Positions 249-54,416 of a stretch of 62,922 nucleotides of DNA are shown here, piece after piece (within the stretch, counting starts at the first letter, position 1; each line of letters begins with the position of its first letter). A model generated the notes under the pieces. That model was not told the DNA's origin. It made no database searches and saw only the letters and a list, made by a program, of their open reading frames with translations. The stretch comes from Spirochaetota bacterium (GTDB lineage Bacteria; Spirochaetota; Spirochaetia; Treponematales; Rectinemataceae), in the NCBI GenBank assembly GCA_029265615.1, contig JAJUIB010000017.1, positions 1-62,922 on the forward strand, written 5' to 3'. Both the position numbers and the translations under genes were made by a program.

Positions 249-1286
249 GGCTACTACCTTCTCACCTCGGCTCTCGCGGTGGTGATCGGCCTCGTTTTCG
301 CCAACATCTTAAAGCCCGGGCTTGGAATGAACATCGTCGGCGATGCGGCAGTGAAGGGGCAGGCCGCACAGGCGCCGACTATTGCGCAAATTCTCCTCAA
401 CATCGTCCCGACCAACCCCGTTGAGTCCCTGGCCAAGGGCGACGTCCTCCCAATCATTTTCTTCGCCTGCGTGTTCGGCATCGCGCTCTCTTTCCTCAAG
501 GACTCGAAAAACGAAGGTCTTTCGCGGAGCGCAGGCAGCTTATTCGATGTCTGCAGCGCGGCCGCGGAGACAATGTACAAAGTCGTTACGGGCATCATGC
601 AGTACGCACCCGTGGGCGTTTTCGTCCTCATCTCTATCGTGTTCGCCCAGCAGGGGCCGAAGGCTATCGGCCCCCTCCTCATGATCACGCTCACGGTCTA
701 CCTCGGCTTTGTTGTCCATCTTGTTGGCATCTATGGCGGCTTCCTCGCCATCTGGCAGCTCGGCATATTCCGCTTTTTCAAGCTTGCCAACGAGGCGATG
801 ATCACCGCCTTCGTGACGAGATCCTCGAGCGGGACACTTCCCGTGACGATGCGCGTGAGCGAAGAAAAGCTTGGCATACCGCGGACAATTTCCTCATTTA
901 CGCTCCCCTTAGGCGCAACGATCAACATGGATGGCACGGCGATCTACCTCGGCGTCTGCGCGATGTTCATTGGCTACGCGACAGGCAGCCCTCTCTCGTT
1001 CAACCAGCAGGTGACCATTGTCATCACGGCGACCCTCGCAAGCATCGGCACGGCGGGTGTCCCCGGTGCCGGTGCCATTATGCTGCTCATGGTACTCGAA
1101 GCGATCGGTGTTAAGGTCGCCGAAGGTTCGGCGAACGCCGCGGCCTATGCGATGATCCTCGGCATCGATGCCATCCTCGATATGGGGCGCACCTGCCTCA
1201 ATGTTTCGGGCGATATGGTCGGTAGCGCGATCGTCGCGAAGAGCGAAAAGGAGCTTACGCTCGGCAACTGGGGCAAGGCACAATAA
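249..1286 (+). CDS. Dicarboxylate/amino acid:cation symporter (DAACS/GltP family), 5' truncated
   Basis: A Na+- or H+-coupled uptake carrier for glutamate/aspartate or C4-dicarboxylates in the inner membrane. The 345 residues visible carry the family hallmarks: the SSSGTLP re-entrant hairpin, NMDGTA in TM7, GVPGAG in hairpin 2, and the substrate-binding DMGRTCLNVSGD of TM8. Family members are usually a little over 400 residues, so roughly the first 60-70 residues (TM1 and part of TM2) are missing. In their place the frame is fused to unrelated methyltransferase and MgtE fragments. The open frame from 63 therefore does not encode a natural 407-residue protein. A strong terminator follows the stop codon. 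The precise substrate cannot be read from sequence. Confidence 0.85.
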   Translation, partial: GYYLLTSALAVVIGLVFANILKPGLGMNIVGDAAVKGQAAQAPTIAQILLNIVPTNPVESLAKGDVLPIIFFACVFGIALSFLKDSKNEGLSRSAGSLFDVCSAAAETMYKVVTGIMQYAPVGVFVLISIVFAQQGPKAIGPLLMITLTVYLGFVVHLVGIYGGFLAIWQLGIFRFFKLANEAMITAFVTRSSSGTLPVTMRVSEEKLGIPRTISSFTLPLGATINMDGTAIYLGVCAMFIGYATGSPLSFNQQVTIVITATLASIGTAGVPGAGAIMLLMVLEAIGVKVAEGSANAAAYAMILGIDAILDMGRTCLNVSGDMVGSAIVAKSEKELTLGNWGKAQ

Positions 1287-48028: not shown

Positions 48029-48072
48029 ACACTTTTCCGATGACGATGAGTCCCGGAAAAAGGAGGATTCAC

Positions 48073-49419
48073 ATGAACGCGTATATCAAGAGGGTCCTCG
48101 ATGACCTCAAGGCCCGTTATCCCTGGGAGACCGAGTTCCTCCAGGCGGCCGAAGAAGTTCTCGAGTCCATCGCCCCCCTCATCGAGGCGGAGCCCAAGTA
48201 TGAGCAGCAGCGCATTCTTGAGCGTATCACCGAGCCTGAGCGCTCGGTTATGTTCCGCGTTCCCTGGATGAACGACAAGGGCGAGTACTGCGTGAACCGC
48301 GGCTACCGCGTTCAGTTCAACAGCGCCATCGGCCCCTACAAGGGAGGCCTGCGCTTCCACCCGAAGGTGCAGCTCTCCACGCTCAAGTTCCTCGGCTTCG
48401 AGCAGATCTTTAAGAACTCCCTTACCGGCCTTCCCATGGGCGGCGGCAAGGGCGGTTCCGACTTCGACCCGAACGGCAAGTCCGAGAACGAGATCATGCG
48501 CTTCTGCCAGAGCTTCATGACCGAGCTCGTGAAGCACGTGGGCCCGGACACCGACGTTCCCGCGGGCGACATCGGCGTCGGCGGCCGCGAGGTCGGCTAT
48601 ATGTTCGGTCAGTACAAGCGCATCGCCAACGAGTTTACCGGCGTTCTCACGGGCAAGGGCCTTGCCTTCGGTGGCTCCCTCATTCGCCCCGAGGCGACTG
48701 GGTTCGGCGCCACCTACTTCGCCGAGGAGATGCTCAAGACCAAGGGCGACAGCATCAAGGGCAAGACCGTGTCCGTTTCCGGCTTCGGCAACGTCGCCTG
48801 GGGCGTCTGCATCAAGGCGAGCCAGCTCGGCGCCAAGGTCGTGACGATTTCCGGTCCCGACGGCTATGTGTTTGATCCGGACGGCATCGGCACGCAGGAG
48901 AAGTGGGACTACCTCAACGAGATGCTTGTCATCGACCGCAACAAGGTCGAGACCTACGTGAAGAAGTTCCCGAACGCGAAATTCTTCGCCGGCCGGAAGC
49001 CCTGGGAGCAGAAGGTCGACATCGCCATGCCCTGCGCCATCCAGAACGAGCTCAATGGTGAGGACGCGAAGACCCTCATCGCGAACGGCGTCAAGATCGT
49101 CGTCGAGGTTTCGAACATGGGCTGCACCCCCGAGGCCTGGAAGCTCTTTATCGAGAAGAAGATCCCCTTCGCGCCTGGCAAGGCCGCGAATGCGGGTGGT
49201 GTCGCGACGAGCGGCCTCGAGATGAGCCAGAACTCCATGCGCCTCTCCTGGTCCGCAGAGGAGGTCGACAAGCGCCTCCACGACATCATGGTCAACATCC
49301 ACAAGACCGCCTTCGACACCGCGAAGCAGTACGGCTTCGAGGGCAACTATGTGGTGGGCGCGAACATCGCCGGCTTCAAGAAGGTCGCCGACGCGATGAT
49401 CGCCCAGGGCCTTGTCTGA
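48073..49419 (+). CDS. gdhA: NADP-type glutamate dehydrogenase
   Basis: A 448-residue hexameric enzyme interconverting glutamate with 2-oxoglutarate and ammonia. The substrate-site motifs are YKGGLRFHP, GLPMGGGKGGSDFDPNGKS with the catalytic lysine, and PAGDIGVGGREVGYMFG; the nucleotide-binding region is SGFGNVAWG; ANAGGVATSGLEMSQNS follows. Length and the segment after GGREVG point to the bacterial hexameric GdhA group, usually NADP-specific. A perfect AAAAGGAGG precedes ATG 48073. Its codon use is strongly biased (many AAG, GAG, CTC), typical of a highly expressed gene. A strong terminator follows. Confidence 0.97.
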   Translation: MNAYIKRVLDDLKARYPWETEFLQAAEEVLESIAPLIEAEPKYEQQRILERITEPERSVMFRVPWMNDKGEYCVNRGYRVQFNSAIGPYKGGLRFHPKVQLSTLKFLGFEQIFKNSLTGLPMGGGKGGSDFDPNGKSENEIMRFCQSFMTELVKHVGPDTDVPAGDIGVGGREVGYMFGQYKRIANEFTGVLTGKGLAFGGSLIRPEATGFGATYFAEEMLKTKGDSIKGKTVSVSGFGNVAWGVCIKASQLGAKVVTISGPDGYVFDPDGIGTQEKWDYLNEMLVIDRNKVETYVKKFPNAKFFAGRKPWEQKVDIAMPCAIQNELNGEDAKTLIANGVKIVVEVSNMGCTPEAWKLFIEKKIPFAPGKAANAGGVATSGLEMSQNSMRLSWSAEEVDKRLHDIMVNIHKTAFDTAKQYGFEGNYVVGANIAGFKKVADAMIAQGLV

Positions 49420-49608: not shown

Positions 49609-51312
49609 ATGAAGCTCGGCATAGGCGGTAAACTTCTTACGGCTTTTGGCCTCATCCTCCTCCTCTGTTTCGCAATCGGATTAGTCGGTCTTATCCAAAT
49701 CGGGGTGATCGATGCGGCCGATACGCGCATGTACGAAAGGGGCGTGCGCAACCTCCAGAGCCTTGGAGCTCTCAATGAAAAAGTGAATCGCGCTCAATGG
49801 CGTCTTCGTGACCTCATGCTTACGACCGACCTCGCGCAAAATGCCCAATTTCAAGCAGAAATAGCCGAGCTGAGAAAAAGCGCCGCCGTTGATGCGGCAC
49901 GGCTTGAGCGCGGCGTTGACAGTGCCGAGGGACGGCGCCTTTTTGATGAATATGCGGCGGCAACCACTGCATTCACGCCGCTGTTCGACAAAATGCTCGC
50001 GCTTGCGGTCGAAAACCGCAAAGCGGAGGCGCTTTCACTGCTTTATGGCGATGCTGCACCTTTGTTTGAGAGGCGCCTGGCGGCGTTGAATGCGCTTACC
50101 ACCTATGAAACGCATGCGGCTGACGCTATTTCCACCGAAAATTCGCGAATTGCGGATGACGCGCGCAGGCTCGTTGTCGCGCTTCTTGCGCTCTGTGCAC
50201 TACTGGCCGCTGGTATCGCTATCATCATGGCGCGCTCCATCGTGCGGCCGATCCGCGAGGCGACGGAGATGGCCGGCCTCATCGCGGCGGGTGATATTTC
50301 CAACGAGGTTCCCGCGGTATATCTTGCCCGACGTGATGAGATAGGCGGTCTTGCGCGCGCCTTTGCCACGATGCTCTCGCGGCTTTCCTCTGTTGTCTCA
50401 AATATCAGAAGCGTGACAGAGAGTGTGGCCGAGGGGAGCGTGCAACTTTCTTCGACCGCTCAAGCGATGAGTCAGGGGGCCACCGAGCAGGCTGCGAACG
50501 CCGAAGAGGTTTCGAGCTCCATAGAGGAGATGGCGGCGATGATTCGGCAGAACACGGACAACGCCGAGGCGACCGAATCCATCGCTTCGAAGGCTGCTCG
50601 CGACGCAGAGCAGGGCGGCGTCGCGGTTGATGATGCCATGTCCGCTCTGCGCGAGATTGCTGCAAAGATCGGCATCATCGAGGAGATCGCGCGCCAGACG
50701 AATCTCCTTGCGCTGAATGCCGCTATCGAGGCTGCCCGCGCAGGCGAGGCGGGCAAAGGCTTTGCGGTCGTCGCAAGCGAGGTGCGCAAGCTCGCGGAAC
50801 GTTCGCAGAAAGCAGCCGGCGAAATAACGCTACTCTCCCGTGCTACGAACGAAAAAGCCCATGTGGCGAGCGGGCTTATTGCGGCCATTGTACCAGCGAT
50901 TAAGAAGAATGCCGACCTCACCCAAGAGATCTCGTCGTCGTCACGGGAACAGAGCGTCGGAGCGGAACAGATCGCCAAGGCGATGATGCAGCTCGACTCG
51001 GTTATTCAGCAGAATGCGGGCGCAAGCGAAGAGCTCGCCGGCATGGCCGAAGAACTTTCGGGGCAGGCGGCGCAACTCGAGCAGGCGGTTGCGTTTTTTT
51101 CGCTTAAGACCTCCGGGGATACTGCTTCACAGGTGGCTATATCCGGCGTACCGCAAAGTGTGGCGGTGTCTTCTGCGCGACATGTTCCCTCCGTTCGCGC
51201 TTTGTCGCATGTCACTACGACACACGCCGCCCCCCCTGCTATGCGGCACAGCCATTCTCTCGGAATACGGCCAACGAACGACGCGCATTATGAGGAGTTT
51301 ACGGAGTTTTAA
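49609..51312 (+). CDS. Methyl-accepting chemotaxis protein
   Basis: A 567-residue chemoreceptor. The first helix ([20 protein letters not shown]) is followed by a periplasmic four-helix-bundle domain (to about residue 185), a second helix ([21 protein letters not shown]), a HAMP domain ([23 protein letters not shown]) and a cytoplasmic signalling coiled coil with the conserved hairpin tip [42 protein letters not shown]. The C terminus is a flexible Ser/His/Ala tail ending EEFTEF, which could serve as a docking site for CheR or CheB. The ligand is unknown. No other chemotaxis gene is adjacent. Confidence 0.95.
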
Positions 51313-51373
51313 GCCCTGACCTTTTTTGTTCGACGAGCGCGCCCAACGGCACAAGTATGCCCTTGCGCCGCCG

Positions 51374-51425: not shown

Positions 51426-54416
51426 ATGTTCTTCAACGAGCTTGTCGCCGCATACGACCAGGCCCGCCGCGAGCGGAACATTTTTCATGATCTCATGCGC
51501 TTTCGCGTCCGCGAGGTTCTTCTTGTCGGAAGCCTGTACGATTCCTTTGTCGTTGAATCCGACGGTGTCCTTACCGAGCAGATATACGGTGAATATTTCA
51601 AGCTCAACCTCAACACGGTGCCGCGGATCACCTGCGCCTACACAGATGAGGCCGCGCTCGCTCTTTTTTCCGAGGGGCGGTTCGATCTCGTCATCATCAT
51701 GGCGGGCCTCGATTTCGAACGGCCGCTCGCCCTAGCTAAGGCGATGAAATTATCCTGGCCCGGCATCCCGGTGCTCCTCCTCGTGACAAATAACACAGGT
51801 CTCGAGGCCCTTGCCCCCGAACGACCTGAGCTTCGGCATGTCGACCGGGTCTTCGTCTGGAACGGCTACTCGAAGCTCTTCGTCGGCATGATGAAATACG
51901 TTGAGGATGCGCGCAATGCCGAAGAAGACACCCGTACCGGTCTTGTGCGGGTCATCCTCCTCATCGAGGATTCGGTCCGCTATTACTCGCGCTACCTTCC
52001 TGTGCTCTACAAGGTAATCCTCAAGCAAACGCAGGCGCTCATCGAGGAGGAAAAGGCCGTCGAAACCTATAAGCTCCTCAGGATCCGCGCCCGCCCTAAG
52101 GTGCTTCTCGCCTCGAGTTACGAGGAGGCCGCGGAAATACTCGCGCGTTTCGAACCCTACCTTCTTGCCGTCATCACTGACCTTCGCTTCCCTCGCGAGG
52201 GAAAGCTCGACTGCGAGGCGGGGTTCGAGTTCCTTAAGATGGCAAAGGAGCGTATCGCCGACCTCCCCGTGATGATTCAGTCGAGCGAGATCGGCGTCCG
52301 TGAGCGGGCCTATGCGATGGGCGCAGCCTTCGCCGATAAGGAGTCGGAATCCCTTGAGCATGAGCTTGCGGTTTTTCTCCAGGAAAACCTCGGCTTCGGG
52401 CCTTTCCGCTTCCGTGCTCCCGCGCCCGAGGGGGGGGAGGGCGAGGTGATTGCCGAGGCGCGCAACATGCGCGAGTTCATCGAGCTTCTCGATCGTGTGC
52501 CGACCGAGAGCCTTCTCATGCACGCAGGGAGGAATCACTTTTCGGCCTGGCTCCTTGCTCGTGGCGAAATTCAGTTTGCGAAGCTTCTTAAAAACTACCG
52601 TATCGACGATTTTTCCTCGCCGCAGGAGATACGCAGGTTCATCCGCCGCGTGCTCGAGGGCGCGCGCCGCGACAAATCGCGGGGTATGGTGCCGAATTTC
52701 GACGAATCCATGTGCCGCGACGAGAACTGCATGATGCGCCTTGGCGACGGTTCCGCGGGCGGCAAGGGGCGCGGCCTCGTGTTCATCAAGAGTCTCCTTG
52801 AGCACCTTGAACTGGGGAACGAGCTTCCCGGCATCCAGGTGAAGATACCGATGACCGCCCTTCTCGGCATTGACGAGTTCGAGCGCTTTCTTGAATCGAA
52901 CGGGCTGTGGTCATTCGCCTACTATGAAGCCTCGCCCGAGGAGGTGCGTGCGCGCTTCCTCACGGCGCCGCTTTCGGCCGAGCTCGTCGAGCGGCTGCGG
53001 GCCTTTCTCGCCGTGGCCGAGCGTCCGCTCGCCGTGCGTTCTTCGGGGTTGTTCGAGGACATGCTCATGGTGCCCTTCTCCGGCATTTATGACACCTATG
53101 TCATTCCGAACGCTCATCCGATTCCAGAGCGCCGCCTCGCGCAGCTCTGCGACGCCATCAGGCTCATCTACGCAAGCCTGTTTTCGGCAAAGGCACGCGC
53201 CTATTTCGATGCCGCGCGCTACAAAATCGAAGAGGAGCGTATGGCCATCGTCATCCAGGAGCTCGTGGGAAGCCGCCGCGGCCGCTGGTTCTATCCGCAC
53301 GTTTCGGGGACGGCGCAGTCCTTCAATTATTACCCCGTTTCCTATGTCCGACCCGAAGACGGGCTTTGTGTCGCCGCCCTCGGCCTTGGTTCCTATGTTG
53401 TCGAGGGCGGCCCCGCTCACCAGTTCTGTCCCAAGTGGCCAAAGCTCGACGTCGTTGCGCCCGCGCGCGAGAGAGAGTCCAGCCAGCGTGTGTTTCGCGC
53501 CCTCGATATGGAGCTTCTTGAGCCCAATCTCGCCGCCGGTGAGGACGCGGCTCTCGCCGAGCTCGACCTCTCTGTCGCCGAGGCCGACCCCAAGTTCCGC
53601 CTCCTTGCCTCCACTTACGATCTTGAGAACGATCGCCTCGTTCCTGGAACGGGCGCGCGCGGTCCGCGCTTTGTCGACCTTGCGAACATCCTCAAACACG
53701 ATGCAATCCCCTTCGCCCGCGCGATCGACCTTGTGCTAGAGCTCGGCGCGCGGTCCATGGGAACGCCGGTGGAGATCGAATACGCGCTCAACCTCGATGA
53801 GAATTCGGGCACGCCGGCGCTCTATCTTCTGCAGCTTAAACCCCTCATTCGGACCGAGGATCGCGTCGAGGTGGACATCACCGAGGCGGAGCCTGAGGAC
53901 TGTTTTATTCTCTCAGAGCGAAGCATGGGCAATGGCCGCGACGCCACAATCTGCGATGTCGTCTGGGTCGACCCCCACACCTTCGATCGCGCCGCGACAG
54001 GCAAGATCGCCCGCGAGATCGAGGAACTCGACCGCGCCCTCGGCGAGGCAGGCCGGCGCTACCTGCTACTCGGTCCCGGGCGCTGGGGCACCCGCGATCC
54101 CTGGCTCGGCGTGCCTGTGACCTTTTCCCAGATTTCCCGCGCGCGCGTCATCGTCGAGGCTGATCTTCCCGGTTTCCAGGTGGAGTCCTCGCTCGGCAGT
54201 CATTTCTTTCATAACGTGACGAGTATGAATATCGGCTACCTCACCGTGCCTGGATCCGGGCTTTCCCGGGTGGACTGGGCCTGGCTTGCCGCCTTTCCGA
54301 CCGAGCGGCGGAGCGCCTACTGCGCCTGGACACGTCTTCCCGAGCCCCTCGAGATTCTCATGGATGGACGGCAAAGCCGCGCGCTCGTCAAAAAGCGGGC
54401 GCAGCGACGCGATTGA
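51426..54416 (+). CDS. Receiver-like domains fused to a PEP/pyruvate-binding (PPDK_N) ATP-grasp domain
   Basis: A 996-residue soluble protein. Residues about 30-150 form a receiver-like fold without the phospho-acceptor Asp (DLVIIMAGL). About 205-315 is a second receiver with VITDLRFP, QSSE and ADKES in the positions of the active Asp, Ser and Lys. The rest is a PPDK_N/PEP synthase-type nucleotide-binding part: GSAGGKGRGL (near 440), AVRSSGLFEDMLMVPFSGIYDTYV (near 535), MAIVIQELVG and GLGSYVVEGG. The C terminus carries LLGPGRWGTRDPWLGVPV (near 882) and SLGSHFFHNVTSMNIGYL. No phospho-His or PEP-catalytic domain is present, so it is not a complete PEP synthase. The ribosome binding site AAGGGGG sets the start. 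Confidence 0.85.
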   Translation: MFFNELVAAYDQARRERNIFHDLMRFRVREVLLVGSLYDSFVVESDGVLTEQIYGEYFKLNLNTVPRITCAYTDEAALALFSEGRFDLVIIMAGLDFERPLALAKAMKLSWPGIPVLLLVTNNTGLEALAPERPELRHVDRVFVWNGYSKLFVGMMKYVEDARNAEEDTRTGLVRVILLIEDSVRYYSRYLPVLYKVILKQTQALIEEEKAVETYKLLRIRARPKVLLASSYEEAAEILARFEPYLLAVITDLRFPREGKLDCEAGFEFLKMAKERIADLPVMIQSSEIGVRERAYAMGAAFADKESESLEHELAVFLQENLGFGPFRFRAPAPEGGEGEVIAEARNMREFIELLDRVPTESLLMHAGRNHFSAWLLARGEIQFAKLLKNYRIDDFSSPQEIRRFIRRVLEGARRDKSRGMVPNFDESMCRDENCMMRLGDGSAGGKGRGLVFIKSLLEHLELGNELPGIQVKIPMTALLGIDEFERFLESNGLWSFAYYEASPEEVRARFLTAPLSAELVERLRAFLAVAERPLAVRSSGLFEDMLMVPFSGIYDTYVIPNAHPIPERRLAQLCDAIRLIYASLFSAKARAYFDAARYKIEEERMAIVIQELVGSRRGRWFYPHVSGTAQSFNYYPVSYVRPEDGLCVAALGLGSYVVEGGPAHQFCPKWPKLDVVAPARERESSQRVFRALDMELLEPNLAAGEDAALAELDLSVAEADPKFRLLASTYDLENDRLVPGTGARGPRFVDLANILKHDAIPFARAIDLVLELGARSMGTPVEIEYALNLDENSGTPALYLLQLKPLIRTEDRVEVDITEAEPEDCFILSERSMGNGRDATICDVVWVDPHTFDRAATGKIAREIEELDRALGEAGRRYLLLGPGRWGTRDPWLGVPVTFSQISRARVIVEADLPGFQVESSLGSHFFHNVTSMNIGYLTVPGSGLSRVDWAWLAAFPTERRSAYCAWTRLPEPLEILMDGRQSRALVKKRAQRRD

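Follow-up and report, generated by a model that had tools for sequence, protein, structure and literature searches.

What does a protein phosphorylate when it carries receiver-like domains ahead of the ATP-grasp domain of PEP synthase and ends before the PEP/pyruvate barrel? The question is raised by an open reading frame on contig JAJUIB010000017.1 of a Rectinemataceae spirochaete, of which a stretch of 62,922 nucleotides, henceforth referred to as the window, was analyzed. The first-pass annotation had proposed that the encoded protein, referred to here as the dikinase, acts on an unknown target in response to a two-component signal.

Domain organization of the dikinase

The reading frame at 51426–54416 is real and encodes a protein of 996 aa. 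An in-frame ATG lies upstream at 51357, and Met1 at 51426 is conserved in 17/17 spirochaete orthologues by alignment. The domain order is pseudo-receiver, intact receiver, helical linker, PPDK_N ATP-grasp domain and C-terminal module, as listed below with the evidence for each feature. Residue conservation was counted over 47 homologues, and a full-length AF2 model was built from a 47-row alignment (pLDDT 84.5, pTM 0.71).

51426..54416, + strand: REC-REC-PPDK_N-phosphoHis-like protein (996 aa, open reading frame)
51510..51935, + strand: pseudo-receiver, aa ~29-170 (model secondary structure; tandem-receiver match 3luf; residue counts)
51942..52406, + strand: intact receiver, aa 173-327 (Z 12-14 to solved receivers; conserved residues)
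52446..52679, + strand: helical linker with conserved HFS.WL.ARGE motif, aa 341-418 (alignments; model)
52728..53849, + strand: PPDK_N ATP-grasp domain, aa 435-808 (Pfam E=1.9e-31; Z 26.7 to PEP synthase 2ols)
53859..54401, + strand: probable divergent phospho-His-like swivelling domain, aa 812-992 (AF2 of the domain alone; fold matches Z 5.6-7.3; His invariant)

Both N-terminal domains had been described as receiver-like, with an apparent phospho-acceptor in the second only, and the residue counts bear this out. The acidic pair and Asp acceptor of a receiver active site were sought in the first domain over the 47 homologues and are missing; Met92 lies near the acceptor position in 42/47. The second domain has the complete receiver set of acidic pair (E181, 46/47; D182, 42/47), Asp acceptor (D252, 47/47, encoded at 52179-52181), Ser/Thr (S286, 47/47) and Lys (K305, 46/47). 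As a receiver it is matched only weakly by Pfam, at E=0.0016 and short of the curated cut-off, and the same residues of the AF2 model, aa 173-327, align with many solved receivers. A putative two-component input through the pseudo-receiver and the intact receiver is supported by the conserved residues. The linker that follows shows a weak DUF5752 match in a single homologue (L107).

The ATP-grasp half of PEP synthase/PPDK is kept, as first annotated, with little or no variation in its catalytic residues. No ATP-binding residue has been lost in the alignment: K447, R538, E544, D545, E783, E785 and Q803 are each present in 47/47 homologues, and residue 805 is K or R. The AF2 model from aa 435 to 992 was the portion aligned with the Neisseria PEP synthase (2ols) at the Z listed above, and a search of the PDB with a profile of the core matched PEP synthases in two collinear stretches with E down to 7e-17. 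The C-terminal GPGRWG and SLGSHFF blocks, earlier called well defined, are conserved in the alignments, with VAGRLG replacing GPGRWG in one family. Such conservation supports the earlier view that the protein is probably active.

A predicted phospho-His-like fold in the C-terminal module

The first-pass annotation had held that both the phospho-His domain and the PEP domain are missing. The absence of the PEP/pyruvate barrel stands, as the C-terminal module is the last part of the chain, which stops at aa 996, and no further domain is recognized by Pfam. For the phospho-His domain, a predicted structure contradicts the annotation in terms of fold: phospho-His domains are the top matches, and the module includes His926 (codon 54201-54203), which is invariant in the homologues.

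Folded alone by AF2, aa 812-996 gave a confident model (pLDDT 91.4, pTM 0.90). The best fold matches were the His domain of rifampin phosphotransferase (5fbu, 755..867; Z 7.3) and PPDK (5jvj, 381..509; Z 7.1), followed by the isolated phosphoryl carrier domain of PPDK (2fm4, Z 7.0) and the C-terminal domain of pyruvate kinase (Z 6.8); values of Z near 7 are moderate, and these matches are mutually consistent and cover the whole domain. Enzyme I domains scored Z 5.6-6.2, and other swivelling folds (chaperonin apical domains, aconitase) about 5. Full-length fold alignments stop at chain residues 467 of PEP synthase, 510 of PPDK and 866 of rifampin phosphotransferase, which we take to be the ends of the phospho-His domains of those enzymes. 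Searches of the module for PF00391 by hmmscan, hmmsearch and hhalign returned no match, nor did Pfam, and Foldseek by itself returned nothing significant; phospho-His domains ranked first only after structural re-alignment (VIA). The module is very probably a divergent phospho-His domain that is invisible to sequence methods. Judged from the order of secondary structure in the model, His926 would be at the beginning of the helix on which PPDK has its catalytic His.

Genomic linkage to glutamate dehydrogenase

A relative of the dikinase is encoded in 328 stretches of the genome collection, from which 78 loci were retained. Most relatives carry an orthologue with 61-86% identity; Rectinema subterraneum is among the named close carriers, all of them spirochaete assemblies, which places the source of the window near Rectinema. 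Among the 78 retained loci, the full architecture also occurs in Bacteroidales, Myxococcota and Sumerlaeota. In the window, a gene for glutamate dehydrogenase (GDH) lies 2 kb upstream of the dikinase:

48040..49419, + strand: hexameric GDH (Pfam; closest solved relative Clostridium symbiosum GDH 1bgv)

A GDH gene is near the dikinase in 20/78 retained loci, mostly upstream on the same strand in spirochaetes and divergent in Bacteroidales. In close relatives of the window's genome the two genes are often on one contig, 71 bp to about 13 kb apart. Linkage was then counted outside the window's family, over 33 dikinase copies from 30 genomes and with a limit of 3 kb. GDH was found within that distance of 24/33 copies, representing 23/30 genomes where about 0.17 would be expected by chance; p-values for this enrichment are only indicative, because related genomes are not independent. 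The remaining 9/33 copies had no GDH within the stretch examined. GDH is the only neighbour common to most of these sampled loci.

All four possible relative arrangements of GDH and dikinase occur among the linked copies, and a quick tree, read with two aberrantly long-branched rows ignored (L233 and L234, probably wrong translations), spreads the partner GDHs over several GDH clades. This variety of arrangements and partner clades is a stronger argument for the link than the p-values. Among 149 Bacteroidia genomes, the 6 that carry the dikinase are exactly the 6 with two GDH genes, and 5 of them have a GDH in divergent or convergent orientation less than 2 kb from the dikinase on its contig. 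The genomic link between dikinase and GDH is strong. What had been left as an unknown target can be narrowed accordingly to the one gene that repeatedly adjoins the dikinase family, with GDH as the presumed rather than demonstrated acceptor.

Tandem dikinase copies interleaved with GDH genes were observed at three loci (L026, 2914-14435; L189; L190), in the order GDH-dikinase-GDH-dikinase in L026 and L189. A chemotaxis receptor gene at 49609-51312 of the window separates GDH from the dikinase; it is absent from this position in relatives and appears to be a local insertion, and it was dropped as a functional partner since its position is not conserved.

Paralogues with other N-termini

Paralogues in Spirochaetota share the ATP-grasp domain and C-terminal module at about 25% identity and keep the key residues, His926 among them. 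Their N-termini were judged by eye to be either GAF-like or KaiC-like without a Walker motif; a Pfam search of both kinds of N-terminus found no named family. Within the sample of 33 copies, GDH is linked to 10/14 of the receiver type, 11/16 of the KaiC-like type and 3/3 of the GAF-like type. The GDHs paired with GAF types are only 31-34% identical to the GDH of the window.

The KaiC-like N-termini without Walker motif were seen on the same core mostly beside GDH (L119, L122, L127; loci L161-L171 and L192-L198). The GAF-like paralogues, as in L128:148-3339 and L120:151-3336 (minus strand), have the core fused to a C-terminal nucleotidyltransferase domain, a type found in other regulators of nitrogen enzymes, and are encoded immediately downstream of a distant GDH (L163, L164, L172).

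Proposed mechanism and alternatives

The reading that we favour, tentatively, is that the protein is a receiver-gated two-domain dikinase in which His926 is phosphorylated by ATP and the phosphoryl group is passed to GDH or a GDH-bound acceptor, setting GDH activity. Homology and conserved residues suggest a reaction like the first half-reaction of PEP synthase/PPDK, in which the ATP-grasp domain would use ATP to phosphorylate His926 of the swivelling C-terminal domain. Because the substrate barrel, or substrate domain, of PEP synthase is absent, the phosphoryl group would leave to a separate acceptor. Genomic linkage points to the partner GDH, or something bound to it, as the most likely acceptor. 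A two-component signal at D252 would gate the reaction and may set the activity or direction of GDH. In the paralogues, GAF-like or KaiC-like N-termini take the place of the receivers, and the catalytic core and the GDH neighbour are retained. With slightly less assurance, this may extend to an undescribed system, widespread in Spirochaetota, Bacteroidota and other groups, in which a PEP-synthase-derived dikinase with interchangeable receiver, GAF-like or KaiC-like inputs controls GDH by phosphotransfer.

The chief alternative, though we consider it unlikely, is that the acceptor is a small molecule. The dikinase would then be a regulated metabolic enzyme that passes the phosphoryl group of His926 to a GDH-related compound (glutamate, 2-oxoglutarate or a derivative), with GDH as a pathway neighbour and not the target. 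Central metabolic neighbours in some lineages (2-oxoacid:ferredoxin oxidoreductase, SerC/SerA, membrane pyrophosphatase) would suit such an enzyme, as would the fact that, to our knowledge, all characterized close relatives phosphorylate small molecules (pyruvate, rifampin). However, neither Pfam nor the model shows a substrate-binding domain between or after the two catalytic domains, and the core and GDH are retained across different regulatory N-termini.

Since a single chain bears an intact receiver and a phospho-His-like domain, the protein might instead be an unusual histidine kinase in which His926 phosphorylates its own D252 or another receiver in an internal His-to-Asp relay. This is quite improbable given paralogues that have the same core and no receiver, and a normal histidine kinase that adjoins the tandem copies in L065 could supply the receiver. 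The model of the first-pass annotation, direct phosphorylation of the target by the ATP-grasp domain with no phospho-His intermediate, agrees with the lack of a PF00391 sequence match in the C-terminal module but is very doubtful in view of the phospho-His fold match, the invariant His926 and the phospho-His route by which PPDK_N-type enzymes work. Equally doubtful is the view that the two genes adjoin because their order was inherited or their expression is shared, with no direct contact in function: the Rectinemataceae neighbourhood (PheS, PheT) is largely inherited together, but a linkage that recurs in four arrangements, with GDHs of different clades and in three paralogue types, and that goes with two GDH genes in Bacteroidia, needs repeated maintenance, and divergent or convergent pairs are not one operon.

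Relation to known systems

None of the domain types in the dikinase is new. The literature, within an incomplete coverage, yielded no account of their combination in a protein that lacks the PEP barrel, of the hidden phospho-His-like domain or of a GDH-dikinase link. PEP synthase (PpsA, pyruvate, water dikinase) and PPDK share the catalytic residues and an ATP-grasp domain with a swivelling phospho-His-type domain directly after it. The dikinase differs from them in having no PEP/pyruvate barrel, a His domain unrecognizable by sequence, N-terminal receivers and a GDH neighbour. Rifampin phosphotransferase (RPH) likewise combines an ATP-grasp domain with a C-terminal His domain and has no PEP barrel, and its structure 5fbu is the best single-domain fold match, whereas the dikinase is without the rifampin-binding domain; the NCBIfam RPH model scored 28 on the dikinase against a cut-off of 999, which does not place it in that family.

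In the Desulfovibrio 'nitrate cluster' DVU0245-0251, the gene for a PEP-synthase-like protein is accompanied by those for a histidine kinase and a receiver protein (PMC4001038). The receiver there is a separate protein, the dikinase has a recognized mobile (phospho-His) domain, and the cluster as described includes no GDH (PMC4001038). DVU0245-0251 is the closest parallel found.

The linkage suggests that a central enzyme joining carbon and nitrogen metabolism is controlled in a way that has not been described. If the favoured reading is true, GDH would be controlled in a new manner, by a phosphotransfer partner of its own that receives two-component or other signals, a dikinase core would have been reused for regulation and not for PEP synthesis, and a large group of proteins now known by the PPDK_N domain alone would gain a testable role.

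Baggio and Morrison reportedly described in 1996 one or more trans-acting genes downstream of gdhA in Bacteroides thetaiotaomicron that affect GDH activity. The likeness lies in a gene neighbouring GDH that is said to act on it. The dikinase family was set aside as this factor, and the gene is probably something else, because a wider core profile found no family member in 143 of the 149 Bacteroidia genomes, including 50 with one GDH.

Other neighbours of the dikinase

PheS and PheT, encoded downstream of the dikinase, are common to close relatives only and were for that reason set aside as conserved partners. In some Bacteroidota, receiver-type dikinases lie next to a 2-oxoacid:ferredoxin oxidoreductase or a membrane pyrophosphatase, both named by eye, instead of GDH (L069, L070, L072, L080, L084, L088, L093; L074, L078, L079, L097, L098). 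At five KaiC-like loci (L165, L167, L194, L197, L198), an apparent glutamate synthase small subunit / NfnAB pair, also named by eye, was observed near the dikinase.
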